From the IMG/VR virus record IMGVR_UViG_3300041409_000066, positions 89,912 through 153,911 of that record: 64,000 bases of DNA; one strand, 5' to 3'. Source of the stretch: a virus. Under the pieces are notes generated by a model, which searched no databases, was not told the origin of the DNA, and was given only the letters and a program-made list of their open reading frames with translations. Both the position numbers and the translations under genes were made by a program. Shown here one piece after another: positions 10,265 to 59,543 of the stretch (position 1 is its first letter; the number at the start of each line of letters is the position of its first letter).

Positions 10265-10301
10265 CTCACCCCTTCACAGGGCTCAAGAGGGGTTGGACAG
10301 G
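10265..10301 (-). promoter_or_regulatory. Motif A copy (late promoter-like element)
   Basis: Plus-strand view: CTCACCCCTTCACAGG, 16 bases, ACAGG. Minus strand: CCTGT, 16 bases, then CCTGTGAAGGGGTGAG. The same layout occurs 11 times in the window, always in this orientation. Here it fills the gap between the 10303-10734 stop and the ATG of the 8747-10246 fibre, 18 bases before that ATG. The two CCTGT boxes are 21 bp apart (two helical turns). Confidence 0.7.
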
Positions 10302-10302
10302 C

Positions 10303-10734
10303 TCACGGGGCGAGCGTGAAGATCGCCAGGTTGTTGCCGAGGAGGTCCAGCACGATGATCGTGTTCTCGGCAGCCAACTTGTTCACCGTGGCGCTGACGC
10401 TGGCGGGGCCGGTGGCCGGATCTTGCTCCACAGACCCAACCGGGGTGCCCCCTACTGCGTTCTGGCCCAACTTGACTTGGAAGCGCAGCCGGTTGTAGCC
10501 GGGGTTGCCGACCGAGTTGCCGACGTTCTCGCCTGTGATGGTGACCAGCACGGGGCCGCTGTCTCCTGCGGCTGGGGCGTTCACCACAGTGAAGTCATCG
10601 AGCGAGAAGCCCTCGCTGACCCCGTACGCCTTGTAGTCACTGGTCGTGCCGGTGTTCTGCCAGGTCCACGCCCCCAGGGAGCGGGGCGGTGGAGATGGCG
10701 AAGCCACCGGACCGAGTGTGCAGACGGCGCCCAT
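10303..10734 (-). CDS. Virion-associated protein, probable fibre accessory
   Basis: 143 residues, beta-rich, with no recognised family. It is predicted from the ATG at 10734, which forms TGATG with the stop of the preceding fibre gene. The first residues (MGAVCTLGPVASPSPPPRSLG) look linker-like. The rest (FSLDDFTVVNAPAAGDSGP, GNPGYNRLRFQVKLGQNAVG) resembles a small jelly-roll or Ig-like fold. It has the same layout as 13212-13667, another small gene coupled to a fibre, so both may be tip or chaperone proteins for the fibre before them. Confidence 0.65.
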   Translation of the reverse strand: MGAVCTLGPVASPSPPPRSLGAWTWQNTGTTSDYKAYGVSEGFSLDDFTVVNAPAAGDSGPVLVTITGENVGNSVGNPGYNRLRFQVKLGQNAVGGTPVGSVEQDPATGPASVSATVNKLAAENTIIVLDLLGNNLAIFTLAP

Positions 10735-11819
10735 CAGAAGCAGTCGAGGTTGATGAGCATGTCGGAGGCCGGGGTGCCGTTGACGCTGGTCACGTCGAAC
10801 TTCCACATGTCGCCCTGGGCGGTGTCCACCGTCGCGTTTGTGACCGCCACGTTGTCTCCGGCGTTCACCGTGACCGAGATGCTGTCCCCGGTGTCCACGC
10901 CGTTGTTGTAGCGGTGGCCGACGACCGTGAAGCCACCGCCCGAGCCGCCGGGTGCGATGTCCACCCGGACGATCATTCGGCGCACCGTGGTCGGGCCGGT
11001 CGGGATGCGCAGGCCCGGCTTGAAGATGTGAGTGGCGACGGCGACCTCGCCCGCGACGACGCAGGACAGGTAGAGCGGCTCGTTGTAGACCCACCGCAGA
11101 CTGCCCAGGGCAGCACCGTCCACCAGTCCGACCCGCGTGTCCTTGCCTGCCACACCGACGTACGAGCCGAGCGCGGGGCTGCCGCTCTCATCGGTGTAGG
11201 TGCCGAGCAGGATGTCGTTGCGCCAGACGCTGATGGTGGGCGCTGTGTTGCTGGTATCCACCTGGGCAGCGAAGCGGTCATACCCAGGGTTGCCGGTCGA
11301 GAAGGTATGCAGCAAGACGTTGCTGGCGGCATCACCTACAGCAAGGCGCACGCCGTTCTGGCGGATCTGGATGATGTAGCCAGAGCCGTTGCTGTTGCTG
11401 CGCAACAGCAGATCTTCCTGCTCGAAGCCACCGTAGATCCCGCCAGGGAAGGTGGCGGCGATGATCTGCGCACCGCTGCCGACCTGTACGACGTAGCCAC
11501 CACCGTTGACACCGAACGCCAACTCGCGCTCGTCAACGGTGATGGCGCCACCACCGGGATAGAGAGACTCCGACAGGAAGTTGTGCGGCTGCCCACCGGA
11601 GTAGTAGTCCTTTGGTCCATCCTTCTGATTGAAGTTGTCTCGGAACGACGTGCCGAGGGCGCCCTTGAGCACCAGCGTGCGTCCGGTCGGCTGGTCGTAG
11701 TGGATGTCGCCGGGGGTACGGCAGTCGAACGACGGGATGTCTGTGCCGATGGTGGCGCGGGTGATCCCGAGGAGGTGCTGCGAGATCTCCTCAAGATGCG
11801 CGTGATTCCGCTCGTACAT
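10734..11819 (-). CDS. Tail fibre protein with shared C-terminal tip domain
   Basis: 361 residues. The N-terminus (MYERNHAHLEEISQHLLGITR) is helical and differs from the MTRAHL type. Residues 60-250 are glycine-rich beta structure with paired blocks resembling LamG/ConA-like folds (FRDNFNQKDGP, PTISVWRNDILLGTYTDES). The last 100 residues (IFKPGLRIPTGPTTV ... SDMLINLDCF) match the C-terminus of the 13664-15373 fibre (LIKPGLRVPRNSN ... SDLLMSVDFA). This points to a shared receptor-binding or trimerisation tip moved between fibres. It is coupled by TGATG to the next gene. Confidence 0.75.
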   Translation of the reverse strand: MYERNHAHLEEISQHLLGITRATIGTDIPSFDCRTPGDIHYDQPTGRTLVLKGALGTSFRDNFNQKDGPKDYYSGGQPHNFLSESLYPGGGAITVDERELAFGVNGGGYVVQVGSGAQIIAATFPGGIYGGFEQEDLLLRSNSNGSGYIIQIRQNGVRLAVGDAASNVLLHTFSTGNPGYDRFAAQVDTSNTAPTISVWRNDILLGTYTDESGSPALGSYVGVAGKDTRVGLVDGAALGSLRWVYNEPLYLSCVVAGEVAVATHIFKPGLRIPTGPTTVRRMIVRVDIAPGGSGGGFTVVGHRYNNGVDTGDSISVTVNAGDNVAVTNATVDTAQGDMWKFDVTSVNGTPASDMLINLDCF

Positions 11820-11833
11820 CTACTTCTCCCTCG

Positions 11834-13150
11834 TCAACCGATGATGGGGTTGCACGCGCTCGACTCGCGGTGCGGCCCGACACGAAGGTGACCCATCGTG
11901 TCCACGTAGACATCCCAGCGGTCCCCGTAGTCATCGTGAAGGACAAGCGTCGAGTGGTAGTTCCCGAAGGGGACGATCTCGACAGCATCAGCAGCAAGCA
12001 CGCCAGCGTTGCATTCGTCAGACATGGCGGTGTCCCCGATGGCCCAGGCACCGTTCCCTCTGACCTTTGCACGGCGACCCATCGCCACAGCGGGTCCATT
12101 CGAGGAAACCTCGGCCTCCTTGCCAAAGACGATGGAGGAGCCGGACTGGCCGATGGCGAGGGCGTCCTTGCCGATCACGATGTTGCCGTTGGGGTCTTGC
12201 AGACCAGCCACGCGAGCGCCGATGCTGACCCAGTTGGTGCCGTCGAAGCAGATGAAGCGCAGCCAGTCCACGGCGCCACTGGCGATCACCAGATCGGGTG
12301 GGTTGATGACCTCGCTGGGCCAGGTGGCGTGACGCCCCACTCTGGTCGCCAAGTTGGCAACCGGCGTTCCGGGGAGAGTGCCGTCGTCGGTGAACTCGGT
12401 GGAGCCACCCATCACGTCAGCGAGGTAGAGGTATGCACCCGGAGTGCTCGGGTCGTTCCGGTAGACCTTGTAGTGGTCCGCGAACTGGTTGTAGTCCCAA
12501 GATGTGTAGACCGATCCGGTCGTGACACCATAGGTGCCAGAAACGTAGCCCTCGTCGTTCTCGGTGATGGGCGACTCGAAGCCGCCGCTATCCACCGTGG
12601 TGACGTAGTAGGTCACGTATCCGTACGTGGACCAGTCGATGCTGCCGCCGTCATCGAGAGGGAGCGAGTGGACCCCGGTGGGCGCCTTCGGGAAGGGACC
12701 GTCCTGCTCCAAGGCCAGGATGAACTCCTTGCCCACCTCTCCGGGCGGGAAGGTGAAGGTGCAGTCGTCGGTCATCAGGATCTTGTTGATGTTGGCGATG
12801 GTCGGCTCGGGGATGGTCTGTGCCGCACCAGAGGCTGGGACGACCCGCAGGATGTCTCCACCACCGCCACCAGTCGCGGGCTCAAGGATGTCCACGTCCT
12901 CGTAGAAGACCTCGGTGCCCGAGCCGATCTTGATGCCGAGGCGGACCCGCTGGGCGTCCTCAACGTAGAAGTCGATCACGCCGTCCGCGTAGGTGTGCGG
13001 ATTGGATCGGGTGACGCCGCTGGTGTCGTCCACGTACATCGTGTCGCTGATCGGCGTCGTGGTCCCCGGCTGCAAGACCCGGACGATGGCGTTCGGCAGC
13101 ACGTTGCCCTGGTTGTCCACCACGGGGCGGTACAGGTGTGCGCGGGTCAT
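11834..13150 (-). CDS. Tail fibre with shared N-terminal attachment domain and Fn3-like module
   Basis: 438 residues. Residues 1-95 (MTRAHLYRPVVDNQGNVLPN...) belong to the attachment domain shared with the 8747 and 13664 fibres. Residues 140-270 read like a fibronectin type III module (YGYVTYYVTTVDSGGFESPI, DHYKVYRNDPSTPGAYLY). Residues 320-390 contain degenerate YadA-like repeats (NIVIGKDALAIGQSGSSIVF). It ends with a beta-rich tip. A motif A copy is 20 bases upstream of the ATG. It is probably a receptor- or glycan-binding side fibre. Confidence 0.78.
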   Translation of the reverse strand: MTRAHLYRPVVDNQGNVLPNAIVRVLQPGTTTPISDTMYVDDTSGVTRSNPHTYADGVIDFYVEDAQRVRLGIKIGSGTEVFYEDVDILEPATGGGGGDILRVVPASGAAQTIPEPTIANINKILMTDDCTFTFPPGEVGKEFILALEQDGPFPKAPTGVHSLPLDDGGSIDWSTYGYVTYYVTTVDSGGFESPITENDEGYVSGTYGVTTGSVYTSWDYNQFADHYKVYRNDPSTPGAYLYLADVMGGSTEFTDDGTLPGTPVANLATRVGRHATWPSEVINPPDLVIASGAVDWLRFICFDGTNWVSIGARVAGLQDPNGNIVIGKDALAIGQSGSSIVFGKEAEVSSNGPAVAMGRRAKVRGNGAWAIGDTAMSDECNAGVLAADAVEIVPFGNYHSTLVLHDDYGDRWDVYVDTMGHLRVGPHRESSACNPIIG

Positions 13151-13170
13151 CGTGGTCCTCTCGGTGCTCT

Positions 13171-13207
13171 CTCACCCCTTCACAGGGCTCGGGGGTGGTT
13201 AGACAGG
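13171..13207 (-). promoter_or_regulatory. Motif A copy
   Basis: CTCACCCCTTCACAGG, 16 bases, ACAGG on the plus strand. It lies between the 13212-13667 stop and the 11834-13150 start, 20 bases from that ATG. The 16-base gap and the 16-mer are intact. Confidence 0.7.
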
Positions 13208-13211
13208 GCGG

Positions 13212-20681: not shown

Positions 20682-22483
20682 CCGGCGACCCCGAAGGAGT
20701 TCTGCGCCTTGATGCGCGGGGTGTTCACCGTGGCGCCGCCGCCCACCGAGTCGAAGACGGGGATCTCGTTGTCCGCGAACGGGATGTCGATGGCGCGGCC
20801 CTCGCTGTTGGCGTAGGTGTGCGTCACCACGCCCTTGACGACCCGCTGGATCGCGTAGTTGGCCGAGTCGTCGGTCTGGTGCAGGAAGCGCACGTTGTCT
20901 ACGCCCTGCACGTTGTGGACGAACTGCAACACGTCGCTGACCTGCAAGACGGTGCCGAAGACGAAGTTGACGAGCAGGGCGGCGATGGCCTCGCGGATCT
21001 GCTCGTTCACCGCGTTCTGGCTGTAGCCCGGCGAGTAGACGACAGCGAGGTTGAAGCGCAGGCCGATCTGCTTGGCCTGGTGGACCTTGGTGTCGGTGCC
21101 CATCAGACGGGCTGCCTCGATGTTGCTCTGCACCGAGAGCACCACGTCGTTGTAGGTGTAGTCGCCGCTGTCCCCGATGACGAAGATCGCTCCGCTGGGC
21201 GGCAGGTTGGTCGCCTTCCACTCCAAGCCGAACAGCGAGGTGGGGGTGTAGCCGAAGGACGAGTCCTCGTGAACGACCCAGTAGTCGGTGCCGAGGTGGT
21301 AGGTCGGCTGCCCCTCGACCGAGAGGGTGGGCGGCACGGACAGGATCGGGCCGTACGCCAGCGGGATGAAGACGTTGTTGACCGCAGGGGCGGTGTCGTC
21401 CTCACGGACGAAGCGCAGTGACGAGTAGAGGTCGCCGTACGCCGGGCTGAACCGCTTGTTCTGCGAGAAGATCACCGACTGCACGGCCTCGCGGGCGCGC
21501 TGCCCGGCCACGTACACGTCGATGCGGTTGAAGATGTTCTGGCTCGGGTCGTTGCGGCTGGCCTTGGGCTGATACTCGAAGTCGAGGTCCATGATGGCGC
21601 CCTCGAAGGGGTGGATCTCGCCGTCCGCGCTCGGGTACGAGGTGTTGAGCGCCTGCACGAACGGCGGGTTGGCTCCGGCGTCGAACTTGTAGTCGTGGCC
21701 GGACAGCAGCACGTCACCCGCGTCGATGTTCGGACCGAAGACGGCGCCCTCGGGGTAGATGAACGCCGCCCCGGCCAGGGTGCTGACTGCCGAGCCTCCG
21801 ACCACCTGCACCTGCTCGCGGTGGCGCTTGGAGGAGCCGATGACGTTGGCGTTGAACACGTTGTCGTCGTCGTTGGCGATGCCGAGGTACATCTGCTCGA
21901 CACCAGCCAGGTTGCGGAACGCCGTACGACGCCAGCGGGCGCGCAGGGCGGTGTCGGACTCCTGCGGGGTGCCGCCCGTGATCGGCTGGATGTTGGTCAC
22001 GTCGGTGATGCCCTGCACGGGCGTCAGGAGGTTGGTCAGCAGGCCCGCTCCGATGTTGCCGGAGACGCCGCCCAGGACCGCCATGACCGGCACCGAGATG
22101 GACCGCACGCCGTTGTCCATGAACGCCGGGACGACCGTGACGACGGTGACCGTGCCGGTGCTGACCTGGGTGTTGGTCGGGATGATGAGCGGGATCGTCA
22201 GGTCGCCTTCGCCCCGCGAGAAGATCACCGCGCCGCTGGCCCGCCGGGCGCCGTAGCGCACCATGCCGAACAGGGCCACGAACTCATCGAGGTCCGCCTC
22301 GGACTTGGTGTCGATGTCGTACTGGTAGGTGATGAGGTGCCGGTCGATGTACGCCTCGGCGGCAGACTCGCCCACCACGTCGAGGATCTTGCGGGTGGTC
22401 GTGCCAGTGGAGGTGTCGAGGTCAGGGTCGGTGACGGCGAGCGTCTGCCGCATCTGGGAGACGACGCTGTTCAAGTCGGGCAT
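20678..22483 (-). CDS. Baseplate J-like wedge protein
   Basis: 601 residues. The opening DLNSVVSQMRQTLAVTDPDLD with TTTRKILDVVGESAAEAYIDRH is the usual start of the Baseplate_J family (P2 gpJ, T4 gp6 core). The family's ARRASGAVIFSR and TDVTNIQPITGGTPQESDTALRARW blocks follow. These proteins form the iris-like inner ring of contractile-tail wedges. It sits between the gp25-like and I-like genes, the order expected for a minimal wedge. The start at 22483 forms TGATG with the gp25-like stop. Confidence 0.9.
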   Translation of the reverse strand: MPDLNSVVSQMRQTLAVTDPDLDTSTGTTTRKILDVVGESAAEAYIDRHLITYQYDIDTKSEADLDEFVALFGMVRYGARRASGAVIFSRGEGDLTIPLIIPTNTQVSTGTVTVVTVVPAFMDNGVRSISVPVMAVLGGVSGNIGAGLLTNLLTPVQGITDVTNIQPITGGTPQESDTALRARWRRTAFRNLAGVEQMYLGIANDDDNVFNANVIGSSKRHREQVQVVGGSAVSTLAGAAFIYPEGAVFGPNIDAGDVLLSGHDYKFDAGANPPFVQALNTSYPSADGEIHPFEGAIMDLDFEYQPKASRNDPSQNIFNRIDVYVAGQRAREAVQSVIFSQNKRFSPAYGDLYSSLRFVREDDTAPAVNNVFIPLAYGPILSVPPTLSVEGQPTYHLGTDYWVVHEDSSFGYTPTSLFGLEWKATNLPPSGAIFVIGDSGDYTYNDVVLSVQSNIEAARLMGTDTKVHQAKQIGLRFNLAVVYSPGYSQNAVNEQIREAIAALLVNFVFGTVLQVSDVLQFVHNVQGVDNVRFLHQTDDSANYAIQRVVKGVVTHTYANSEGRAIDIPFADNEIPVFDSVGGGATVNTPRIKAQNSFGVAG

Positions 22484-22911
22484 CAGGCACCTACCGTCAG
22501 AGGGATCGTCACGCGCTGGTTGGCCTGCGTGACGAGGACGACGAACACGGTCACCGTGTCGAAGTTGATCTGGACCCGGATGTCCTGAATGGCCCGCACC
22601 ACGTCGCTGGTGTCGTACCGGGAGGCCCGCTGGGCGGTGAAGTCACCAAGCACCTGGGCGCGCTGGACGAGGACGTAGTTCTGCAAGACCCGGTTGGCCT
22701 CGCTCTCCACCAGCAGCGCCACCTCCTCGGTCAGGGTCTGGCCGATGTAGGACCGGATGATCGAGCCCCAGTCCCGGTGGAAGCGGTCGTTGCCGAGCGG
22801 CTCGATCAGAGCACACCGAAGATCCTGGGTGATGCGAGCCGCCCCAGAGATCGTCTTGTGCCCCGCAGGCGTAACCACGAGGTCACCGTCTGCGAGCGCC
22901 AACTGCTTCAT
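22483..22911 (-). CDS. gp25/gpW-like baseplate wedge protein
   Basis: 142 residues, the usual length. ISGAARITQDLRCALIEPLGN, then DWGSIIRSYIGQ, followed by a helical region (EVALLVESEANRVLQNYVLVQRAQ), are typical of the gp25-like lysozyme-fold wedge protein. It lies just before J, as in P2 and T4-like phages. A motif A copy begins 9 bases upstream, with a clean GAGGAGG Shine-Dalgarno between. Confidence 0.85.
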   Translation of the reverse strand: MKQLALADGDLVVTPAGHKTISGAARITQDLRCALIEPLGNDRFHRDWGSIIRSYIGQTLTEEVALLVESEANRVLQNYVLVQRAQVLGDFTAQRASRYDTSDVVRAIQDIRVQINFDTVTVFVVLVTQANQRVTIPLTVGA

Positions 22912-22919: not shown

Positions 22920-22956
22920 CTCACCCCTTCACAGGCGTTCCAAGCGGTCAGACAGG
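22920..22956 (-). promoter_or_regulatory. Motif A copy at the baseplate wedge unit
   Basis: CTCACCCCTTCACAGG, 16 bases, ACAGG on the plus strand. It ends only 8 bases before the gp25-like ATG, with the Shine-Dalgarno GAGGAGG directly after it, and its distal box overlaps the stop codon of the 22948-26466 gene. The very short leader limits where transcription could begin. Confidence 0.72.
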
Positions 22957-41898: not shown

Positions 41899-43353
41899 CT
41901 ATGCAGCCTGGGCGAGATCGACAGAACCCGTGTCCACGTTGATCGAGAAGGACACGACGATGTAGTTGAGCGGGAGCGCCGGGCGGTAGGCGAACTTGAC
42001 CTCGATGACGCTGGGGTCGCTGCTCAACTGGCGGGCCTTGAGGTCCACGTAGCCGAGCACGACGCCGCGCTGGACCGCGTTCTCCAAGATCCCGCTGACG
42101 GCAGCCTTGACGCGCTGCGGCGTCTCGAAGTCGATGGGCGACCCGATGAGCCCGGACTGGTCGAGGCCGTACTGGATGGCCGTGAACAGGGTGTCACGGG
42201 CGCGCACGACCGAGATCTCGCGGTTGGTCAGGCCACCCGCGTAGTCGGTCGTGAGGCCGTGCCGTACGACGAGGTTGCCGTTGCGGTCCACCTCGACCAT
42301 GCAGACGCCCTGGCTCGCCACGGCGTTCTTGTTGGCCTTGGTCTGCGTGGCCTGGATGCGGGCCGGGATCCCCGCGAAGCCGACGATGACCTCCTTGGTC
42401 AGCGGCTTCTGGACCGGGATCGCTGACAGGCGCCCAGCGAAGGCAGCGGCCAGGTAGTAGCCGTCCACCTCGATGGTCGTGTTGGAGTAGCCGCTGTAGA
42501 AGTTCAGCGAACTCGGGTACGCCAGGATGACGCGCTTCTGGTGGACCGCGTTGGCGATGGCCGTGAAGCCCGAGTCGCCGCCGTCGAAGTCCTTCGGGGT
42601 GCCGAGGATGCCGATGCGCGGCAGGCCGTCAGCAGCAGCCGCCACGCAGTGGTTGCGCAGGTCGGCGGCGATGCCCTCGATGGCGCTGACCGTCGTGACC
42701 GAGGCGTCGAGGATCGGGACGACGATGCCGACCCGGTAGTCCGTGTCCACCTTGGCGTACGCCGTCACCAACTGCTCGGCCAGCGTGCCGTCCGCAGCGT
42801 CGGTGGCGATGGTGATGAGGCGGGTGGCGCCGTTGGTGAACGCCTCCTGGGCCGCGAGCGACAGCGGGCTGACGATCTGGCTGCCGGTGAAGACCGAGGT
42901 GCTCACCAGCGGGTTGCCGTAGAGGTCCACTACCGAGTCGAACTCGGTGTGGAGCACCGGGTTGGAGTAGCCGACCGGCTTGTAGCGGTAGGCCACCGTC
43001 ACCGTGTCGCCGCTGGCGACCGCGCCGGGCGTGGTCGGCAACTTGATGCTGACGACAGCCCCGTCCGAGCCGGTGTTGTCGGTGGTCAGCACGTAGTCGG
43101 TGTTGACCGTCAGCGTGTTGCCGTTGGCGTCCTTGACGACCGGGGCGTTGCTGCCGCCAGACAGCACGCCGTGGTTGGTCAGCGCCTGGTTCGACGGGGA
43201 GATGACCACGTTCTGGGTGGCCGTCTTGTAGCCGAGCGCCGGTCCGACCAGGCAGACGACGGAAGGCTCGACCCCCGTGACCGTCAGCAGTGGCTGGGTG
43301 TTGTCCTGCACCAGCACGCTCGGCGGCACGTAGTTCGAGAAGTCGATGCTCAC
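41899..43353 (-). CDS. Contractile tail sheath protein
   Basis: 484 residues from GTG 43353, with AGGAGG 6 bases upstream; starting further upstream would add arginine-rich leader residues. VSIDFSNYVPPSVLVQDNTQ at the N-terminus, a central domain (VILAYPSSLNFYSGYSNTTI, YYLAAAFAGRLSAIPVQKPL) and the C-terminal LQR-like strand pattern (VIEVKFAYRPALPLNYIVVS) fit the tail-sheath family. The motif A copy at 43379 lies 25 bases before the start. Confidence 0.9.
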   Translation of the reverse strand: MSIDFSNYVPPSVLVQDNTQPLLTVTGVEPSVVCLVGPALGYKTATQNVVISPSNQALTNHGVLSGGSNAPVVKDANGNTLTVNTDYVLTTDNTGSDGAVVSIKLPTTPGAVASGDTVTVAYRYKPVGYSNPVLHTEFDSVVDLYGNPLVSTSVFTGSQIVSPLSLAAQEAFTNGATRLITIATDAADGTLAEQLVTAYAKVDTDYRVGIVVPILDASVTTVSAIEGIAADLRNHCVAAAADGLPRIGILGTPKDFDGGDSGFTAIANAVHQKRVILAYPSSLNFYSGYSNTTIEVDGYYLAAAFAGRLSAIPVQKPLTKEVIVGFAGIPARIQATQTKANKNAVASQGVCMVEVDRNGNLVVRHGLTTDYAGGLTNREISVVRARDTLFTAIQYGLDQSGLIGSPIDFETPQRVKAAVSGILENAVQRGVVLGYVDLKARQLSSDPSVIEVKFAYRPALPLNYIVVSFSINVDTGSVDLAQAA

Positions 43354-43378: not shown

Positions 43379-43415
43379 CTCACCCCTTCACAGGAGCGGG
43401 GCCGGGTTGGACAGG
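43379..43415 (-). promoter_or_regulatory. Motif A copy at the sheath gene
   Basis: CTCACCCCTTCACAGG, 16 bases, ACAGG (plus-strand view), 25 bases before the sheath GTG. Its distal end is only 19 bases from the rightward HNH gene's start, so this short region serves two divergent genes. The HNH gene separates it from 43760-44404, the gene that would be next upstream on the minus strand. Confidence 0.7.
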
Positions 43416-46801: not shown

Positions 46802-47401
46802 CTAGATGACGCCGATGAGCATGATCGTCACGGCGGACGTGACGGGAGAGCCATTCTGGTCGAGGATGCGCACGCGCAGCGTCGTGGACGTGAAGTTGTG
46901 CGGCAGGATCGTCGCCGGGATGCCGCCACCGCCGGTCGGGCCGAGGCCGCTGGCCGTGACGACGCCGGGCGTGAAGCCGAAGCCGTGGGTCAGGTCGTGG
47001 AAGCCCGAGCCGTCCGGCGTGAAGGACGCGAAGCGACCGGACAGGCCGCTGGTGTTGCCCTGGGTGACCGTGCCGCCGGAGCCGCCGGACGCGGGCGGCG
47101 GGTTGCCGGGCGAGTAGAAGTACGCCGCCGGGTGACCCTGCAACGTCGCGGCGTCAGAGCCGCCGCCACCACCCGCGTGGGTGTGGTCAGCCGTGGCGAA
47201 GTAGGCAGCCGGGTGGCCCTGCAAGGTCGAGGCGTCACCGACAGTGCCGCCACCGCCTCCACCGCCGCCGCCAGCAGCCGCCTGCGCGGCCTCGTAGATC
47301 TTCTGGTCGATCAGGTCGTACGCAGTGGCGAAGTCAGCAGCCCGGAACGGGTCCGACCCCGCAGGCTTGATGATGCCGTAGTGCGCAGTGGGCGTACCCA
47401 T
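46802..47401 (-). CDS. Virion surface protein with Gly runs and a duplicated segment
   Basis: 199 residues. Two runs of consecutive glycines separate a repeated segment, STLQGHPAAYFATADHTHAG then ATLQGHPAAYFYSPGN. The N-terminus (HYGIIKPAGSDPFRAADFAT) is a small compact part and the C-terminus ends in strands (STTLRVRILDQNGSPVTSAV). Such layouts fit head fibres or decoration proteins. Strong Shine-Dalgarno GAGGAG, and a motif A copy 20 bases upstream. Confidence 0.65.
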   Translation of the reverse strand: MGTPTAHYGIIKPAGSDPFRAADFATAYDLIDQKIYEAAQAAAGGGGGGGGGTVGDASTLQGHPAAYFATADHTHAGGGGGSDAATLQGHPAAYFYSPGNPPPASGGSGGTVTQGNTSGLSGRFASFTPDGSGFHDLTHGFGFTPGVVTASGLGPTGGGGIPATILPHNFTSTTLRVRILDQNGSPVTSAVTIMLIGVI

Positions 47402-47421: not shown

Positions 47422-47458
47422 CTCACCCCTTCACAGGAGCGAGGCGGGGTTCGACAGG
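47422..47458 (-). promoter_or_regulatory. Motif A copy
   Basis: CTCACCCCTTCACAGG, 16 bases, ACAGG (plus-strand view), 20 bases upstream of the 46802-47401 ATG. It lies directly after the 47471-47686 gene's stop. Confidence 0.7.
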
Positions 47459-47470: not shown

Positions 47471-47686
47471 TTAGGCGGACAGCGGCTCGGGCACGGGCTC
47501 TCTGTACGCCTCGGTGAGGGCCGCTGCTGCCATCCGCTCGTACTTGGCGTGCTGGGACGGGTGGAGCGCCTCGAAGGCCACCACGTGGGGCTGTCCGGCG
47601 TGCTCGGCCATGTAGATGACGCAGGCCGTCCGGCACACGAGAGAGTCCGGTGCCGACTTGGAGATCTTGTCCTTGGTGAGCGCCAC
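47471..47686 (-). CDS. Small hypothetical protein
   Basis: 71 residues from GTG 47686, with GGGAGG 7 bases upstream; the ATG at 47704 would lie inside a motif A copy. Sequence is ordinary alpha-rich (VALTKDKISKSAPDSLVCRT, HAKYERMAAAALTEAYREPV). Alone between two motif A copies and after a strong terminator hairpin, so it appears to form its own transcription unit. Function unknown. Confidence 0.6.
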   Translation of the reverse strand: MALTKDKISKSAPDSLVCRTACVIYMAEHAGQPHVVAFEALHPSQHAKYERMAAAALTEAYREPVPEPLSA

Positions 47687-47699: not shown

Positions 47700-47736
47700 T
47701 TCACCCCTTCACAGGTGATGTGACCGCCACCACAGG
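47700..47736 (-). promoter_or_regulatory. Motif A copy directly after a terminator
   Basis: TTCACCCCTTCACAGG, 16 bases, ACAGG (plus-strand view). On the minus strand the hairpin of 47738-47793 ends 1 base before this element begins, giving a terminator-then-promoter junction. The 47471-47686 gene begins 13 bases downstream with its own GGGAGG. Confidence 0.72.
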
Positions 47737-51150: not shown

Positions 51151-51660
51151 CTACGGACGCGGGGTCAAGCCGCCAATGGTGATCTTGGTCGGGCTGTTGA
51201 CCTTGAGCAGTCGGGCGACCGGCTTGGCCGATGCACCCGAGGCGCCAGCGGGGACGAGCATCCCGCGAGTGGCGCCGGTCGTTCCGGCGTAGACGAGCGT
51301 CTCGGTGCCGTCTCCGGCCTCGGCCCACGTGGCAGCCGGGTCGAAGGCGGGGGCGAGGATCTCGAACTCGGCGTCGTCAGCGAGCACCCACACCGCGAAG
51401 GCGTTGATGCCAGCGTCGAGCACCTCGTCAATCCCGTCGCCGCCGACGTAGAGCGCGCCGAGGCCGTACGGGACACCCGTGCCGTTGATGAGCGTGACGT
51501 TCTCGCCCGCCGTCTTCATGAAGACCATGCCGGGGAACACAGCAACGCTGCGGTCCCACGCCGGGTCGAGGAAGACGGACTTCGGGGTGGTCTGGGACCA
51601 GCCGTACAGGGGGCGGATGGTCCGCTTGATGTACGCCTTGTTGAGCCGCGTGCGGAGCAT
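51151..51660 (-). CDS. Capsid accessory protein, probable decoration/stabiliser
   Basis: 169 residues, beta-rich (NVTLINGTGVPYGLGALYVG, EFEILAPAFDPAATWAEAGD), with a Pro-ended C-terminus. It lies between the protease/scaffold and the major capsid gene, where phage decoration or cement proteins are commonly found. A motif A copy begins 30 bases upstream and ATGGAGGTAGCC gives a good Shine-Dalgarno. Function inferred from position and composition. Confidence 0.62.
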   Translation of the reverse strand: MLRTRLNKAYIKRTIRPLYGWSQTTPKSVFLDPAWDRSVAVFPGMVFMKTAGENVTLINGTGVPYGLGALYVGGDGIDEVLDAGINAFAVWVLADDAEFEILAPAFDPAATWAEAGDGTETLVYAGTTGATRGMLVPAGASGASAKPVARLLKVNSPTKITIGGLTPRP

Positions 51661-51690: not shown

Positions 51691-51727
51691 CTCACCCCTT
51701 CACAGGAGATGTCTCGACTTGGACAGG
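51691..51727 (-). promoter_or_regulatory. Motif A copy after the protease/scaffold unit
   Basis: CTCACCCCTTCACAGG, 16 bases, ACAGG (plus-strand view). On the minus strand it lies beyond the hairpin of 51779-51807 and 30 bases before the 51151-51660 ATG, again a terminator followed by motif A. Confidence 0.72.
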
Positions 51728-51828: not shown

Positions 51829-52668
51829 CTAGTCGAACAGGTCGCTGTCTGTCGTGTCGTCAGCGACCGAGCCGCCTCCGGCCTGGGCTGCGAGCCCGGC
51901 CTCGGCGGACAGGGAGGGAACCGTGCGCTGGACGCCCTGGCTGGCCGCACGGGGCACGAGGCCACCGGGACGGCCCGCAGGACGGGCCTGCTGCTGTGCC
52001 GCGTTCTTGGTGACGACGGACAGCGTGGCGATCTCGTTCTCGATGACCGCCGGGATCATCGTCTCGTCCGACGCGATCTTCTCCGCGAGGCCCAACTCGT
52101 CCTCGTTGGAGAGCCCGGCCTGACGACGCAGACGGGCCAGCCGCAGCGAGGCCATTGTGCGCTCGGCGCGCTCCTCGCCCGACAGGGACGAGAGAGTCCA
52201 CGGGAACGCGACCTGCGGGTTCATCGGGTCACCGACGCGCACGTCCGTCTCGATCTTCGTCTCGTCCAGCGGGCGCTGCGTCTCGGTGCCCGCGACGGGC
52301 GCCTGCACGTTCTCCAAGACGTTGAACGGGGCGGTCGGCAGAGCCTCGCCCGGCACCAACGGCGTGGTCGTCGTGTCGGCGGCGAGGTTGTTCACCGAGC
52401 CCGGCGTCATGCCGGGGTTGAGCGGCGAGTCCATCGCGCTCGGGGTCGCGGCCTGCTCGGTCGTCTCGAACGCCGCCTCGGAGGGCGGGTCCGGGATCGG
52501 CTGGGCCGGGTTGTTGATGTCTGCCTCGACCTTGAGGGCCGCGACGTGCTGCGTCACTCCGGCGAGGCGGGCGATGAACTCCACCTGCGCTTCGAGGGTC
52601 GCGATGCGTGCGGCCTGGGCGTCGATGGTGCGCTGCTGGGCGGCAACTGCCGCGAGGGCGGGGCGCAT
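51829..52668 (-). CDS. Nested scaffold protein, in-frame start inside the protease gene
   Basis: 279 residues. ATG 52668 has AAGGAGCAGAGT directly upstream, a strong Shine-Dalgarno inside a coding region, and a motif A copy begins 51 bases earlier. The product starts MRPALAAVAAQQRTIDAQAA and continues as a heptad-like coiled coil, then a Pro-rich linker and an acidic end. This mirrors lambda C/Nu3, where the scaffold is the C-terminal part of the protease gene. Confidence 0.65.
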   Translation of the reverse strand: MRPALAAVAAQQRTIDAQAARIATLEAQVEFIARLAGVTQHVAALKVEADINNPAQPIPDPPSEAAFETTEQAATPSAMDSPLNPGMTPGSVNNLAADTTTTPLVPGEALPTAPFNVLENVQAPVAGTETQRPLDETKIETDVRVGDPMNPQVAFPWTLSSLSGEERAERTMASLRLARLRRQAGLSNEDELGLAEKIASDETMIPAVIENEIATLSVVTKNAAQQQARPAGRPGGLVPRAASQGVQRTVPSLSAEAGLAAQAGGGSVADDTTDSDLFD

Positions 52669-54972
52669 ACTCTGCTCCTTCTGCGTGCTGCCCTCGCGCC
52701 GGTTGACGCGAGAGTCGTTCCAACCCTTCACAGCAGATGCGGCGCGTCCGACAGGAACGGCCTCTCCCTGCTGGGGCTCTTGCTGTGCCGCGTCCTGGGC
52801 AGTGGTCAACAGACCCTCTGCGCAGTTGGGGCACACGTCGCCTTCGACAGCGCCGTCAGCGACCGGCGCGTCCGCGTCGGTCGGCGTGCTCTGGGGCGGC
52901 GAGGCTTGCGTCTCGAACCCGCAGTTCGGGCACATGAGGTCGGGCATGTTGCCGTCGTCGTCGGTCTGCTGGTCGTCCACCACCTGGCCGTCGTCCGCGA
53001 TGTCGCCGGGCTGCAACGGCTGCTGCTCGTCGGTGATCTTGTCCACCTGCTCCTGACCGGCATCGTCAGGATCAGCGACCTCGTTGGCGTTCATCGGGAT
53101 CTCGTCCGTGCCCGGCTGGCCCGAGCCAGGGATCACGTCGGGCATCCCGTCCTCGTTCGGGTCCGTCTCCTGGCCCTCCGCGATGTCCTTGCGCAGGTCC
53201 ATCGACTTGGCCGTGTCGAGGTCGGGGTCTTGGAACATCTTCGGCGGCGCGACGAAGCCGCAGACCTGGCACTCGTTGCCGTCGTACGCATCGGCCTCGC
53301 CGCAGACCGGGCACTCCTCGTCGCGCAGGGTGTCCACGTCGGCGGGGGCCATCGTCTCGCCGTACGCCAACTTGCTCGCGGTGTGGAAGTGGCTGTCGTC
53401 CATGAAGTGGCCGGGCTCGCCGCCGTTGTAGTCCGGGTGGTCGTTGGTGATCCCGTGGCCGTGCTCCCAGTCGTGCAGCCGCCGGATCTCGTGGTGGTGC
53501 AGCGGACGGTCGAGGTCGTCGGCCTCGTCCAGCGCCGGGTGGTCCTCGTCCTCGGAGTTGCGCCACAGGTGGCCGTCTGTCGTCTCGTACCCGTGGTGCA
53601 GCATGTGCGCCATCAGGTCGTCGGGGTCCGACAGGTTGACCGTCCGGCGCTCGTTGTGGTCGTGCATCTCGCCGTGCATCCGACCGGCGTCCGAGGCGGA
53701 CTGCATCACCTCGACCGTCTCCGGGGACAACTTGATCTTCGAGTGCGAGTGCGGCCCCTCGTCATCGGACTGCAAGTCGGTGTGGTCGCCGTGCGCGACG
53801 TAGGGGTTGAGCGAGGCGAGGCTCGACAGTCGGGACGGACCACGACCTTGCTGCTCAAGCATCTGCCGGTCGAGGTGGTCGTGCGGGATGGCCGAGTTCA
53901 CATGGTCCTCGAACGATCCCTGTGCGTCCGGGTGCGGCTCGAAGACGTGCTCGTAGAACGCCCGCTTGTCGCCCACCTCGCCCTTCGGTGGCTCCTTGCC
54001 ATCCCAGGTCAGGTTGGCCTCCGGGTCGTCCCACCGGACCATCACGCGGTGGCTCTTGCCGGGGGTGTCGCTCGGGTGGACGGAGTGGATCGTCGCGCCC
54101 TCACCGTGGTGGTCGATCACCCGGTCGCCGGGCTTGAACTTCGGCGGCTTCATCTCATCGTGATCCGGCTTACCGGGGCACGGCATGTTGGCGCGAGCGT
54201 CGTCACCCTGCGACATCAGGGCATCGCACTTGGGGCAATACCGACCGTCGAAGTCATCCTGCCACTCGTGACTCTCGCTGGCGGTCTTGCTTGCCGTCGA
54301 GGCCAGACCGCTGTGGTCGTCCACGCCGAGGAAGAACGCGGTCGGGTCAGCGGGCTCCTCGACCAGCAGGCTGTTCTCGAAGAACTTGAGGCCGTGGCAG
54401 ATCTCGCGCACGAGGATGCCCTCGCGCCGCCCGGAGGCGGTCGTGCGGTAGATCCGCTGGCCCTTCATCTTCGGGATGTGGGCGCAGTATTCGAGCGGCG
54501 TGGTGGCCTTGTTGTTGCAGACCGAGCAGACGCTGAACGCCACGTCGGTGCCCATCGAGGTCCGGTCGATGTGCCCGGCCAGGATCGCCTTCGCCAGGCG
54601 CGGGAAGCGGACGGCATCGACCTCCATGAGCACCTCGGCCCAGGTGTCGGGGGTGCCGTCCGGGTTCTTGTCCTCGTGCAGGGCCGCGTCGATGATGACG
54701 CCGCGAGCACGGCGGTGGTTGTCGTTGTTGTGGTTGACGAAGACCGGCTTGCCGACGAAGGAGCGGTACGCCTCCTTGATCTCGCTGGCCGGGAACTCGT
54801 CGTAGTTGTCGTTGCACCGGGAGGAGATCGCCCGGCTGCGGACGTACAGGTAGCCAGGGCGCGGCTCGTAGGTGAAGTTGTGGCGGTGCGCGTACCGCTG
54901 CAAGCCGAGCGGGTCGTTGACCGGCGCCAGCGTGGCTTCCAGCACCTCGAACGAGGCGAACTTGCGCAGCAT
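51829..54972 (-). CDS. Prohead protease with fused His-rich/zinc-ribbon and scaffold regions
   Basis: 1047 residues. Residues 1-230 look like a capsid maturation serine protease: SFEVLEATLAPVNDPLGLQR, then GKPVFVNHNNDN (candidate His) and HIDRTSMGTDV (candidate Ser). Residues 240-250 are a C-x2-C (YCPKCDALM). Residues about 400-540 are exceptionally His-rich (LHHHEIRRLHDWEHGHG). Residues 550-725 hold at least three CPxC ribbons. The last 279 residues are a coiled-coil scaffold that can also be made alone from ATG 52668. The ATG at 54972 is 17 bases from a motif A copy. Confidence 0.75.
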   Translation of the reverse strand: MLRKFASFEVLEATLAPVNDPLGLQRYAHRHNFTYEPRPGYLYVRSRAISSRCNDNYDEFPASEIKEAYRSFVGKPVFVNHNNDNHRRARGVIIDAALHEDKNPDGTPDTWAEVLMEVDAVRFPRLAKAILAGHIDRTSMGTDVAFSVCSVCNNKATTPLEYCAHIPKMKGQRIYRTTASGRREGILVREICHGLKFFENSLLVEEPADPTAFFLGVDDHSGLASTASKTASESHEWQDDFDGRYCPKCDALMSQGDDARANMPCPGKPDHDEMKPPKFKPGDRVIDHHGEGATIHSVHPSDTPGKSHRVMVRWDDPEANLTWDGKEPPKGEVGDKRAFYEHVFEPHPDAQGSFEDHVNSAIPHDHLDRQMLEQQGRGPSRLSSLASLNPYVAHGDHTDLQSDDEGPHSHSKIKLSPETVEVMQSASDAGRMHGEMHDHNERRTVNLSDPDDLMAHMLHHGYETTDGHLWRNSEDEDHPALDEADDLDRPLHHHEIRRLHDWEHGHGITNDHPDYNGGEPGHFMDDSHFHTASKLAYGETMAPADVDTLRDEECPVCGEADAYDGNECQVCGFVAPPKMFQDPDLDTAKSMDLRKDIAEGQETDPNEDGMPDVIPGSGQPGTDEIPMNANEVADPDDAGQEQVDKITDEQQPLQPGDIADDGQVVDDQQTDDDGNMPDLMCPNCGFETQASPPQSTPTDADAPVADGAVEGDVCPNCAEGLLTTAQDAAQQEPQQGEAVPVGRAASAVKGWNDSRVNRREGSTQKEQSMRPALAAVAAQQRTIDAQAARIATLEAQVEFIARLAGVTQHVAALKVEADINNPAQPIPDPPSEAAFETTEQAATPSAMDSPLNPGMTPGSVNNLAADTTTTPLVPGEALPTAPFNVLENVQAPVAGTETQRPLDETKIETDVRVGDPMNPQVAFPWTLSSLSGEERAERTMASLRLARLRRQAGLSNEDELGLAEKIASDETMIPAVIENEIATLSVVTKNAAQQQARPAGRPGGLVPRAASQGVQRTVPSLSAEAGLAAQAGGGSVADDTTDSDLFD
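52719..52755 (-). promoter_or_regulatory. Degenerate motif A copy inside the protease gene
   Basis: TCCAACCCTTCACAGC, 16 bases, ACAGG (plus-strand view); the 16-base gap is exact and 11 of 16 bases of the proximal block match. It lies 51 bases before the nested scaffold's ATG, inside the protease coding sequence, so conservation here must be compatible with two uses of the same DNA. Confidence 0.55.
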
Positions 54973-54989: not shown

Positions 54990-55026
54990 CTCACCCCTTC
55001 ACAGGGCTCGCACTGTCCCAGACAGG
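54990..55026 (-). promoter_or_regulatory. Motif A copy at the protease unit
   Basis: CTCACCCCTTCACAGG, 16 bases, ACAGG (plus-strand view), 17 bases before the protease ATG. On the minus strand the terminator at 55032-55062 ends 5 bases before it. Confidence 0.73.
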
Positions 55027-56257: not shown

Positions 56258-56620
56258 CTACGCCTTCTTGAGCGCCTTCTCGATCCGGGTCAACTGCTTC
56301 TCGATGCGCTGGCCGGACTCGGCAGCGATGGCGTCGTTCTTGAGGTCGGCGTCGATCTCGCGGCGCTGCATCTCGGTCTGCAACCGCTGCTGCACGAGCA
56401 CGAAGATCGTCAGCAGGATGGCCTCGACCGACAGCACCAGGGTCAGGAAGGAGAACGGGAAGGGCTCTACTCCCGCCAGAGCCCAGCCCACGACCAGCAC
56501 CACGTTGACGAGCCCGAACTCGACCGTCGCGCACTTCGACGCGATCCAAGCAGCAGCCCGATCCTTCTTCGGCGGCGGCGGATGGCGGACCTCCTCGGGG
56601 TGGACGACCTCCTCGACCAT
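56258..56620 (-). CDS. DUF1003-like two-helix membrane protein
   Basis: 120 residues from ATG 56620 (TGATG with the receiver-protein stop). DRAAAWIASKCATVEFGLVN with FSFLTLVLSVEAILLTIFVL matches the DUF1003 family: two membrane helices, then a basic helical tail (QQRLQTEMQRREIDADLKND). DUF1003 proteins are found widely in bacteria with no settled function. Last gene of the seven-gene membrane unit. Confidence 0.72.
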   Translation of the reverse strand: MVEEVVHPEEVRHPPPPKKDRAAAWIASKCATVEFGLVNVVLVVGWALAGVEPFPFSFLTLVLSVEAILLTIFVLVQQRLQTEMQRREIDADLKNDAIAAESGQRIEKQLTRIEKALKKA

Positions 56621-57309
56621 CAGCCCTCCAACGCCTCGTGGATCAGGCGGCACAGGGCGTCAGGGTCGAACGGCTTGCGGATGTAGACGACGTTGGCCGG
56701 GAGGTCACGCGGGGTGTTGTCGAGAGCCGAGCAGACGATGACGGTGCAGTCCGGGCGTACCTCGCGGTAGGCCCGGATCACGTCGGCCCCGGTGCCATCT
56801 TCGAGGCGCCAGTCGGTGACGAGCACGTCCTCGTCGGGGTGGATCGGCAACAGGTCGGAGAGCCCAGCAGCGACTCGGACGCGCATCCCCTCGAAGGTCA
56901 GCAGCATCTCGGCCATCTTGCGCAGTTCCTCGTTGTCGTCCACGAACAGCACCGAGCCGAGAGGGTGGCCGCTGTTCACCCGAGCCTCGACCAACTGGGC
57001 CGCAGCCCGGTCGCGGGCCTGCTCGACCTCGGTGGGCGGTGGGAGCCGCTTGAGGCACGTCTCGTCGCGGGGGCAGGTCGCACAGCGGTCGCTGGACCTG
57101 CGCCCTGGGTTGCACAGGCGCTTGACCTCCGCGATGCCCTCGGCCTTGTCCACCCGCCGCTGCGGCTCCGGCTTGGGCTCCTTCTTCTTGGGCTTGGCGT
57201 AGCGGTAGGCCCACCAGAACGACCAGAGAGCAACGACGCCCATGACGGTCTGCCCGAGCGCGACGGCGTTCGGGCTATCGGGGAACAAGGGGTCGAGCGC
57301 CTCAAGCAC
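56620..57309 (-). CDS. Membrane-anchored response-regulator receiver protein
   Basis: 229 residues from GTG 57309 (overlaps the preceding TGA). Residues 17-37 form one membrane helix, then a Lys/Pro-rich stretch. Residues 66-85 have four cysteines spaced C-x9-C-x2-C-x5-C, with CATCPRDETCL resembling the CxxCPxxxxCL part of WhiB-like Fe-S sites. Residues 117-229 are a CheY-type receiver with every catalytic residue: D124/D125, phosphoacceptor D166, S194 and K212. No DNA-binding or output domain follows. Phage receiver domains are rare, and membrane attachment is unusual. The partner kinase is probably a host protein. Confidence 0.82.
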   Translation of the reverse strand: MLEALDPLFPDSPNAVALGQTVMGVVALWSFWWAYRYAKPKKKEPKPEPQRRVDKAEGIAEVKRLCNPGRRSSDRCATCPRDETCLKRLPPPTEVEQARDRAAAQLVEARVNSGHPLGSVLFVDDNEELRKMAEMLLTFEGMRVRVAAGLSDLLPIHPDEDVLVTDWRLEDGTGADVIRAYREVRPDCTVIVCSALDNTPRDLPANVVYIRKPFDPDALCRLIHEALEG

Positions 57310-57748
57310 TGCGGTCCTTCCATGCTGCCTGGACGGGTGGCTCGTACAGGGCTGCTGCCGACGACAGCGACAGGGCCACCGAGGCGATGGCGGCGTAGTA
57401 CGACAGGTGGTTCTGGAAGGCGGCGACCGCGAAGGCGGCTGCCGAGATGTTGAAGATGACCACCGACATGGCGCACCCGAAGCGCACGAAGCCGAAGCGG
57501 CCTCGGGCATAGAGCCCGTAGACCATCGCCACGTCGATCAGGATGTGGATGACACCGAGCGTCCACAGGTGCGGGCCGATGAAGTGGCGGAAGGCGTCGA
57601 AGGCTGTCGTCTTGGCGTTGTCCCAGCGGGTCAGCGCGTCGATGCCCAGCGCGGCGTGCGCGATGAGCAGCGAGAGCACGACCTTCCAGTAGCCGGGGTG
57701 GTCGTAGTAGAGGTTCGGGACGCCGCGACGGCGGTCGTTACGCTCCAT
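57302..57748 (-). CDS. Four-helix membrane protein
   Basis: 148 residues from ATG 57748. Four hydrophobic segments (about 21-38, 60-80, 88-108, 115-133) are joined by short loops; the N-terminus is basic (MERNDRRRGVPN), consistent with the cytoplasm. Sequence is not recognised, and there is no pore-type or holin motif I can name. It overlaps 57738-58298 by 11 bases and the receiver gene by 8, so all three are translationally linked. Confidence 0.68.
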   Translation of the reverse strand: MERNDRRRGVPNLYYDHPGYWKVVLSLLIAHAALGIDALTRWDNAKTTAFDAFRHFIGPHLWTLGVIHILIDVAMVYGLYARGRFGFVRFGCAMSVVIFNISAAAFAVAAFQNHLSYYAAIASVALSLSSAAALYEPPVQAAWKDRSA

Positions 57749-58298
57749 CGCCGCGAGCCTTCGTGTTGCGCAACACCGCATCGGTGTTGGCGTCCACAGC
57801 GACGGTGTTGCTGTCCATCGAGGCGTCGAGCGCACGAGACGCCTGCCCCTGCTCCTGGCGATCCATCGCAGCGGTGTTGCGGTTCATCGCCTCGGTGTTG
57901 GCCTTCATCGACTCGTCGGAGGCGCCCTGGTCGATCTCCAAGATCCGACTCACCACCCTCTCGTCGCGGATCGTCAGGTAGCCCGTCGCGATCTCGCTGG
58001 CGTAGAAGTAGCCGAGCACGAACAGGCCGTAGATGATGTTGTGGCTGAACGACGGCTTGTGGACGCCGTAGAGCGCGAGCACGCCGATGACGATGCCGGT
58101 GACGGCCAGCCCGATGCGGACGGTGTAGCGAACGCGCTGGTTGATGGCGACCAGGGTCGAGCCCGTCTCCATGCCGCCAGCCGCTTCCATCTCGCGGACG
58201 ATCTTCAACTGCTGGTCGTACTGCCGGTAGACCCTGATGTGCCGGGTCAGCACGAAGGAGAGAATGGCGATCCAGATGATCGCCGGGATGTAGTTCAT
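57738..58298 (-). CDS. Membrane protein with N@d-type trimeric coiled-coil tail
   Basis: 186 residues with three membrane helices (about 3-18, 58-78, 87-105), leaving a long C-terminal tail. The tail has at least five heptads of the form (M/V)-x-x-N-T-x-x: M131..N134, M138..N141, M161..N164, V168..N171 and V175..N178. This matches the asparagine-in-core (N@d) coiled coil of trimeric autotransporter stalks, in which a ring of Asn holds an anion. A trimer is therefore predicted. Its neighbours suggest a shared complex with the receiver protein. Confidence 0.7.
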   Translation of the reverse strand: MNYIPAIIWIAILSFVLTRHIRVYRQYDQQLKIVREMEAAGGMETGSTLVAINQRVRYTVRIGLAVTGIVIGVLALYGVHKPSFSHNIIYGLFVLGYFYASEIATGYLTIRDERVVSRILEIDQGASDESMKANTEAMNRNTAAMDRQEQGQASRALDASMDSNTVAVDANTDAVLRNTKARGDGA

Positions 58299-58519
58299 GG
58301 TCGCCCCTTCGGCTTCGGCTTGGCTTGGGCGACTGCGATCTCACGGCGGATCGTGCCGAACAGGCGCTGGGCCTCCTCTGCGTGACGCTGTGCCTCTGCT
58401 GATGCTGCGATGGTGGCCGCGAGTGCTTCCGATGCCCGAGCAGCCATCTCGTCCTCGTTCGGGTCACGGTGCTCGTCATGCAACTCGGCCCTACGCTTGG
58501 CCCAGCGCAGCCCCTTCAT
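58295..58519 (-). CDS. Small helical, charged protein
   Basis: 74 residues from ATG 58519 (ATGA overlap). Almost wholly helical and highly charged (WAKRRAELHDEHRDPNEDEM, SAEAQRHAEEAQRLFGTIRR), with a Lys/Pro tail. No membrane segment. Part of the coupled membrane unit; a cytoplasmic linker or regulator is conceivable. Confidence 0.65.
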   Translation of the reverse strand: MKGLRWAKRRAELHDEHRDPNEDEMAARASEALAATIAASAEAQRHAEEAQRLFGTIRREIAVAQAKPKPKGRP

Positions 58520-58878
58520 CGCCCACCGCCGCCCCGCTTGGGTGGCATGGCCTCGCGCAGCAGTTCCAGACTCTGCTTGGCGCTCTCGGTCGCTGCCGCC
58601 GACGTGTTGTTGGCCTGCTCCAATGCCTTCACCAGCGAGTCGCGCTGGGCCACCATGTCGTTGAAGCGGTTGTTGTCCGCCTCGCGCAGGCGGGCTACCG
58701 CCTTCGTCGTGGTCACCCGGTCGCTGTAGAACGCCCAGGCCACCAGCAGCAGGACAACGAGCGCCCCACCGGCACCTGTGACCAGCGGGACCAGATCGGT
58801 GAAGGAAGTCCCCTTCACGATCTCGGATGCAGGGGCTGGGCTTGGCTCGACGGCCAGCAACAGCGCCAGAGGCGACAT
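58516..58878 (-). CDS. Signal/anchor protein with coiled coil
   Basis: 120 residues. A short N-terminal hydrophobic stretch (PLALLLAVEPSPAPA), a membrane helix (about 33-51, GGALVVLLLVAWAF), then a coiled coil of about 50 residues (ARLREADNNRFNDMVAQRDS, LEQANNTSAAATESAKQSLE) and a Gly/Arg tail. Such shape fits spanin- or phage-shock-like proteins, but no lysis motif is present, so the role is open. Confidence 0.62.
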   Translation of the reverse strand: MSPLALLLAVEPSPAPASEIVKGTSFTDLVPLVTGAGGALVVLLLVAWAFYSDRVTTTKAVARLREADNNRFNDMVAQRDSLVKALEQANNTSAAATESAKQSLELLREAMPPKRGGGGR

Positions 58879-58910
58879 CGCTCATCGCTCCGTGCCGAGC
58901 ACCCTGGCCG

Positions 58911-59114
58911 TCATGCCACCTGCTCCTTCTTGGTCTGCTCCGCAGCCAGCAAGGCCAGGAGTCGGGCGTGTTCATCCGCGAAGTACCAGTCCAACTCGGC
59001 GCAGAAGTCGCGACCCCTCCGACCGAGCAGGAGCCACCACGCAGCATCGAACGCCGTGACGACGAACGCGCCGGACGCGGCCACGAAGCAACCGATGTGG
59101 ACGGCCCGCTTCAT
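58911..59114 (-). CDS. Small membrane protein opening the seven-gene unit
   Basis: 67 residues from ATG 59114, with AGGAGGTGACC directly upstream. One membrane segment (about 8-30, CFVAASGAFVVTAFDAAWWL), then a helical cytoplasmic part (DFCAELDWYFADEHARLLAL). First gene after a motif A copy, so probably the lead gene of the membrane unit. No family recognised; too short to be a holin of a known type without support. Confidence 0.65.
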   Translation of the reverse strand: MKRAVHIGCFVAASGAFVVTAFDAAWWLLLGRRGRDFCAELDWYFADEHARLLALLAAEQTKKEQVA

Positions 59115-59136
59115 GGTCACCTCCTGTGAGGACTCC

Positions 59137-59173
59137 CTCACCCCTTCACAGGGCTGGAAGCACCCCAGACAGG
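59137..59173 (-). promoter_or_regulatory. Motif A copy at the membrane unit
   Basis: CTCACCCCTTCACAGG, 16 bases, ACAGG (plus-strand view). It lies 22 bases before the ATG at 59114 and directly beside the stop of 59175-59495. Its presence suggests the membrane unit is co-regulated with virion genes. Confidence 0.7.
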
Positions 59174-59174
59174 A

Positions 59175-59495
59175 CTAGGTGACGGCTCTCAAGACGAAGG
59201 TGTCCTCGCGGAGAGCGGTGCCGAGGGTGGCATCCAGAGCCTTGGCTCGCCACGTGTAGACGCCCGGCGCCATGCCGGTGGTGTCCAGCCGGTAGATCCA
59301 CTTGCCCTCGCCCGCCGAGGTGAAGACCGGCGAACCGACCGGGGTGGCCGGGACGTGCGGGGTCACGTTGGTCTGGATCACCGCGTCGAGGGCCACGCCA
59401 CCCGCCGGATCCGTGGGCGCTCGGGTCGCCGGGTCGAGGGTGTTGACCACCAGCACGATGGTCGCCCCCACGAGGAAGTCGGTCCGATCAGCCAC
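59175..59495 (-). CDS. Ig-like virion-associated protein
   Basis: 106 residues from GTG 59495. DFLVGATIVLVVNTLDPATR leads into strand pairs (GVALDAVIQTNV, PGVYTWRAKALDATLGTALR) of an Ig-like or Fn3-like domain. Shine-Dalgarno GGGAGG. A motif A copy lies 11 bases upstream. Probably a decoration or fibre part. Confidence 0.62.
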   Translation of the reverse strand: MADRTDFLVGATIVLVVNTLDPATRAPTDPAGGVALDAVIQTNVTPHVPATPVGSPVFTSAGEGKWIYRLDTTGMAPGVYTWRAKALDATLGTALREDTFVLRAVT

Positions 59496-59506
59496 GGTGG
59501 CCTCCC

Positions 59507-59543
59507 TTCACCCCTTCACTGGTGTCAGTCGCCCTCGGACAGC
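59507..59543 (-). promoter_or_regulatory. Motif A copy
   Basis: TTCACCCCTTCACTGG, 16 bases, ACAGC (plus-strand view): the gap is exact and two base differences occur in the conserved boxes. It is 11 bases before the 59175-59495 GTG, and its distal part overlaps the stop of the 59525-61366 gene. Confidence 0.6.

Follow-up and report, generated by a model that had tools for sequence, protein, structure and literature searches.

Copies of a two-box element before virion genes

The window analysed here, 64,000 nt in length, is the final 64 kb of a 153,911-bp virus record (IMGVR_UViG_3300041409_000066; hereafter the present phage). It carries eleven copies of a short element standing just before genes for the tail sheath, a baseplate protein and a head protease, as well as several of unknown function (Table 1). 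Scanning the window for CCTGT-N16-CCTGTGAAGGGGTGAG (N, any base) with up to three mismatches gave 10 matches (eight exact, one with one mismatch and one with three), and 100 dinucleotide shuffles of the window gave none. The eleventh copy, at 52719, has four mismatches against a slightly longer pattern and lies inside the coding sequence (CDS) 51829-54972. All are on the minus strand, and the eleven copies in a single orientation listed in a preliminary description of this DNA are thus confirmed.

That description had suggested searching the full genome and its relatives as a check. The whole record holds 17 copies, every one on the minus strand; the six beyond the window are at record positions 6089, 6332, 14875, 22722, 57068 and 89243. 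A reversed control pattern has no match in the record. The minus strand is also the gene strand (208 of 211 called genes). Most genes between 22.8 and 57 kb of the record are small; this stretch, which we presume to be the early region, contains no copy. The element is thus found upstream of virion genes and is missing from the presumed early region, which is the distribution of a phage late promoter.

Ten of the window copies end 8-30 nt before the next start codon, and the copy at 52719 ends 50 nt before a nested in-frame ATG. Both this proximity to start codons and the separate Shine-Dalgarno site downstream of the element are as first described. Two boxes at a fixed spacing, in one orientation and directly upstream of genes, is the layout of a sigma-type bipartite promoter. 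Two other early claims hold in part. A pair of CCTGT boxes 21 bp apart is exact in nine of the 11 copies, but the second box of 52719 reads GCTGT, and 59507 has GCTGT and CCAGT. Placement after a terminator is clear for 47700, which follows a terminator-like hairpin with a 15-bp stem (z score -6.4), and plausible for 54990, which has a weaker hairpin upstream, but most copies have no clear terminator. Beyond the window, the copy at record position 57068 follows a strong hairpin (z score -3.3).

Table 1. Copies of the putative late-promoter element and associated genes (window coordinates unless marked as record)
Feature	Position	Strand	Remark
Element, exact	10265..10301	-	18 nt before gene 8747-10246
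Element, exact	13171..13207	-	20 nt before gene 11834-13150
Element, exact	22920..22956	-	8 nt before baseplate gene 22483-22911
Element, exact	43379..43415	-	25 nt before tail sheath gene 41899-43353; orthologous site has the element in many relatives
Element, exact	47422..47458	-	20 nt before gene 46802-47401
Element, 1 mismatch, after 15-bp hairpin	47700..47736	-	13 nt before open reading frame (ORF) 47471-47686
Element, exact	51691..51727	-	30 nt before gene 51151-51660 (phrog_2783)
Element, degenerate, within protease CDS	52719..52755	-	50 nt before nested in-frame ATG
Element, exact	54990..55026	-	17 nt before gene 51829-54972; G007 orthologue predicted leaderless on same element
Element, exact	59137..59173	-	22 nt before ORF 58911-59114
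Element, 3 mismatches, overlaps end of upstream gene	59507..59543	-	11 nt before gene 59175-59495
1047-aa gene, N-terminal head maturation protease match	51829..54972	-	Downstream of element 54990
Nested in-frame ORF, 279 aa, C-terminal part of protease gene	51829..52668	-	Own Shine-Dalgarno AAGGAG
Sigma-region-4-like small protein	Record 62430-62771 (outside window)	-	Sigma region 4 helix-turn-helix
DUF7236 neighbour of sigma-region-4-like gene	Record 62113-62433		

The internal copy at 52719 has a counterpart in another genome, G018. In the present phage the ATG downstream of it is in the protease frame and is preceded by AAGGAG; in the G018 orthologue an element lies internally at the corresponding position and is followed by a Shine-Dalgarno-like AAAGGGAG and an in-frame ATG that opens a product of 275 aa. 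Aligned over 280 columns, the nested products of the two phages share 46% identity. The arrangement resembles that of lambda C/Nu3, in which protease and scaffold are nested, and we would guess that the 279-aa product is possibly scaffold-like.

Conservation and dialects in diverged phages

We found no close DNA relatives of the present phage in the phage collection, and global k-mer statistics gave no informative signal in its relatives. Its sheath protein is 30%-34% identical to those of Myrna, Bxz1-type phages, the Gordonia phages Pupper and Skog, and others. Across 11 such records, all 18 matches of CCTGT-N21-GAAG fall on the gene strand, and the motif precedes the sheath gene in Myrna, Pupper, Tonenili, Skog, Breeniome, Phabba, and ScoobyDoobyDoo. 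A search of viral contigs with a sheath alignment yielded 80 loci, from which we used 50 non-redundant 150-nt sheath-upstream regions: 14 contain CCTGT-N21-GAAG (shuffles: mean, 0.014; maximum, 1). Sheath searches of viral contigs with a single sequence, and of bacterial genomes with the alignment, found none. The longer form CCTGT-N21/22-GAAGnnGTGA, sought in 22 viral records, has 30 matches in 11 of them, always on one strand per record, and no match in the control.

The spacing between the boxes is fixed within narrow bounds. In 11 other genomes, a spacing of 21 gives 52 matches on the gene strand and one on the other, and a spacing of 22 gives 26 and one; the remaining spacings give about three to four against one. 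When spaced word pairs upstream of genes were sought without supervision, CTGT-N21-GAAG (or shifted neighbours) ranked top in the present phage and in G018, and the same pair with N22 ranked top in G007.

Whole-genome scoring revealed that each phage has its own wording of the element, or dialect. The present phage uses CCTGTC-N21-GAAGGGGTGAG, G002 uses CCTGT-N21-GAAGGGGTGAR, G018 uses GCTGT-N21-GAAGAGGTGAG, G009 uses CCTGT-N22-GAAGAAGTGAA, and G007 uses CCTGT-N22-GAAGGGGTGATG; Breeniome (Bxz1-type) often has GAATAGGTGAG, and Myrna and Pupper have GAAGACRTAGAG before the sheath gene. From these sites we read CCTGT-N21/22-GAAGnnGTGAG as the conserved core. None of the relatives' 33 elements has the second CCTGT, which is therefore private to the present phage; the repeat over two helical turns noted in the preliminary description is not the conserved core and is not supported as the functional unit.

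The same second box bears on the proposal that the element is an operator or activator site, bound by a dimer on the two CCTGT boxes or by a stoperator-like repressor, and acting on a separate promoter. The direct repeat 21 bp apart in the present phage is what such a site would look like, but the relatives do without it. Moreover, as little as 8 nt (none in G007) is left downstream of the element, which leaves no room for another promoter, and sigma-70-type promoters (TTGACA/TATAAT hexamers) have no match in the two stretches scanned for them (window 8-26 kb and 42-61 kb). We consider an operator highly improbable.

Exact matching was of little use outside the phage itself. The exact two-CCTGT pattern has 77 matches in viral contigs, of which 76 are one unrelated repeat (TGATAATCCTGTGCCATATGGCGG...), a coincidence that we set aside. 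The unrelated repeat, TGATAATCCTGTGCCATATGGCGGTTCTCCTGTGAAGGGGTTCCGC, is present in many phage contigs (L014-L090 except L071) and fits our first pattern by coincidence. Exact CCTGTGAAGGGGTGAG has 11 isolated single matches scattered among viral contigs.

A probable conserved late promoter and its predicted start point

The position of the element relative to the start codon differs among the phages in an informative way. Across genomes the distance from element end to start codon is -2 or 0 in G007 and otherwise at least 8, with the single exception of a weak Breeniome match at 1. The protease orthologue of G007 begins GAAGGGGTG-ATG, its start codon overlapping the second box (box 2). This start codon is supported by the alignment of the G007 protein with that of the present phage from residue 1 (71% identity). 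The present phage has instead a 17-nt leader with a Shine-Dalgarno site. In G007, start codons overlapping the element in several genes suggest leaderless late mRNAs. Since the start codon overlaps box 2 there, the 5′ end of the transcript would be expected at the 3′ end of that box, and this is where we would place the start point of the element in general. A start at the A or G of GTGAG accounts for both the leaderless and the 17-nt-leader arrangement and puts the beginning of CCTGT at -35 (N21) or -36 (N22).

These positions also bear on whether the element could act in RNA, box 2 being an extended Shine-Dalgarno or start-associated translation signal of the kind first proposed for the start-associated sequences (SAS) of cluster K. 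Every copy does precede a start codon, and AAGGGGTGA is similar to AAGGAGGTGA, which is complementary to the 16S 3′ end. However, the distance to the start is mostly 8 to ~40 nt and is -2 in G007; an element fused to the ATG in one phage and 17 nt from it in another is not one ribosome site. Separate Shine-Dalgarno sites follow the element, and CCTGT stays at constant distance though the spacer diverges. Rfam recognizes no RNA family in the window, and the SAS sequence is missing. A role in translation therefore seems to us very unlikely.

On this sequence evidence we read the element as a real late promoter, conserved across the phage family. We hold it to be very probably a promoter, and we infer that transcription from it is late. 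The phage-specific late promoter of the preliminary description is strongly supported by conservation, spacing, orientation, the association with virion genes, the leaderless variant, and the lack of any bacterial regulon with multiple copies in this wording. As a whole explanation, to which we give a probability of roughly 0.8, each copy would be a core late promoter used by the host's RNA polymerase in company with a specificity factor made by the phage. CCTGT would serve as the -35 box and GAAGGGGTGAG would cover about -9 to +2; transcripts beginning at the A or G of GTGAG would have either a short leader with the Shine-Dalgarno site in it or, as in a relative, no leader at all.

A host alternative sigma factor could in principle read such a promoter without any phage factor, and the two-box geometry suits the sigma-70 family; we found no full sigma gene with region 2 in the phage. 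Against this, each phage has a separate dialect, and the element family spans phages of both Mycobacterium and Gordonia. The element is missing in the Gordonia phage RedWattleHog but present in Pupper and Skog, which are Gordonia phages too. When 84,980 bacterial and archaeal genomes were scanned for the exact pattern, 17 single scattered matches and no regulon emerged, a result that argues only against a host regulon of this exact wording. We regard a purely host-encoded reader as unlikely.

Candidate reader and comparison with known systems

The preliminary description had reported no binding protein in the window and had suggested looking for a sigma-like gene outside it. The first point holds for the window; elsewhere, however, the genome encodes a conserved small protein that has the region 4 helix-turn-helix of sigma factors. 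It matches PF08281 (E 5e-6 and 5.8e-5, just below the curated cut-off) and PHROG sigma factor families, and its relative in Finch is annotated as an RNA polymerase sigma factor. The AlphaFold2 (AF2) model of its relative in L249 has a predicted local distance difference test (pLDDT) score of 89.8. Foldseek matches in the PDB are individually weak (E 0.09 or more) and are dominated by the -35-binding domains of Mycobacterium tuberculosis SigD, SigL, SigC, and similar actinobacterial sigma factors. The gene occurs in 10 of 11 named relatives and adjoins the DUF7236 gene in a conserved block with homologues of phrog_2769 and phrog_1362. In RedWattleHog, both genes are missing and no element was found; an HNH-like ORF, read from the translation, lies between the usual neighbours there (MT521993, 77934-78500).

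The specificity factor would be this sigma-region-4-like protein, perhaps together with DUF7236. It is the most likely candidate, and we put its being the reader at about even odds. DUF7236 was tried as a sigma region 2 and rejected, its AF2 model being poor and no PDB sequence match being of note.

Several observations weigh against the late-promoter explanation or its candidate reader. Sigma70 region 2 (PF04542) has no match anywhere in the record, and the candidate is not classed as a full sigma factor. In Rhodococcus phage E3 the gene is present but no element could be recognised, and the pairing is thus imperfect. The -10 side is rich in G and differs from known sigma -10 boxes, and box 2 (AAGRGGTGA) is similar to the sequence complementary to the 16S rRNA 3′ end. 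Finally, the gene calls rest on a home-made caller.

Other repeats were seen along the way. In E3 (NC_021347), CTTGCGCTCnCCTAYAGGYGTCYAGTACACTRGACG recurs upstream of genes at 5839, 42799, 85458, 118594, and 120791 and is probably that phage's early promoter. In the present record, a second repeated sequence, CTTGYSN..CCAAGSATCCTTGTAGTACC, stands before genes on the minus strand at 92251 (window 2340), 51495, 50548, and 49423; it has a palindromic CAAGGATCCTTG core and the look of a more conventional, early class of promoter or operator. The record also has two genes of 1265 aa each, which proved unrelated to each other.

With this element, a late-gene switch can be put to the test in the large cluster C-type (Bxz1/Myrna) group and related phages. 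In the literature searched, which does not cover most subscription journals, we found no previous account of the element and no late-gene switch described for these phages. It is carried by laboratory phages of Mycobacterium smegmatis and Gordonia. If the explanation is true, these phages offer a set of natural cases in which a transcription factor and its sites have changed in step, and their promoters form a class poor in A+T on the -10 side. A broader picture, which we offer only tentatively, is that in an actinobacterial myovirus family including Myrna and the Bxz1-type phages a phage-made partial sigma factor, restricted to region 4 and perhaps divided between two proteins with DUF7236 as the second, recognizes a promoter rich in G and poor in TA, sites and factor co-drifting into per-phage dialects and the internal copy driving a nested scaffold-like protein.

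The SAS of cluster K are repeats in one orientation just before start codons of the same genes, and their extended forms (ESAS) vary between subclusters (PMC3203893). The likeness noted in the preliminary description extends to placement: the present element too has a single orientation, lies directly before start codons and is conserved at the same genes. It does not extend to sequence. Each SAS is one 13-bp GGGATAGGAGCCC box, accompanied in about half of cases by 17-bp inverted repeats, whereas the present element has two boxes 21-22 nt apart, and the SAS consensus has no match in the window within two mismatches. Leaderless mRNAs of mycobacteria have the start codon at the transcript 5′ end (PMC3898074, PMC4633059). 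Here leaderlessness is deduced from the overlap of the promoter's 3′ end with the ATG in G007.

Bacillus subtilis SigO/RsoA is a two-part sigma factor with region 4 on a separate protein. The candidate reader likewise carries region 4 alone, but the only candidate for a region 2 partner here is DUF7236, a conserved neighbour with a poor AF2 model. In T4 (gp55/gp33) and SPO1 (gp33/gp34), small phage-made sigma-like proteins on host RNA polymerase switch on late virion genes from short dispersed promoters. Unlike those promoters, the present element keeps both a -35 box (CCTGT) and a G-rich -10/start box, as we read them, and the candidate has the sigma region 4 fold only; what the systems would share is short, dispersed promoters of late virion genes and a phage-made sigma-like factor.

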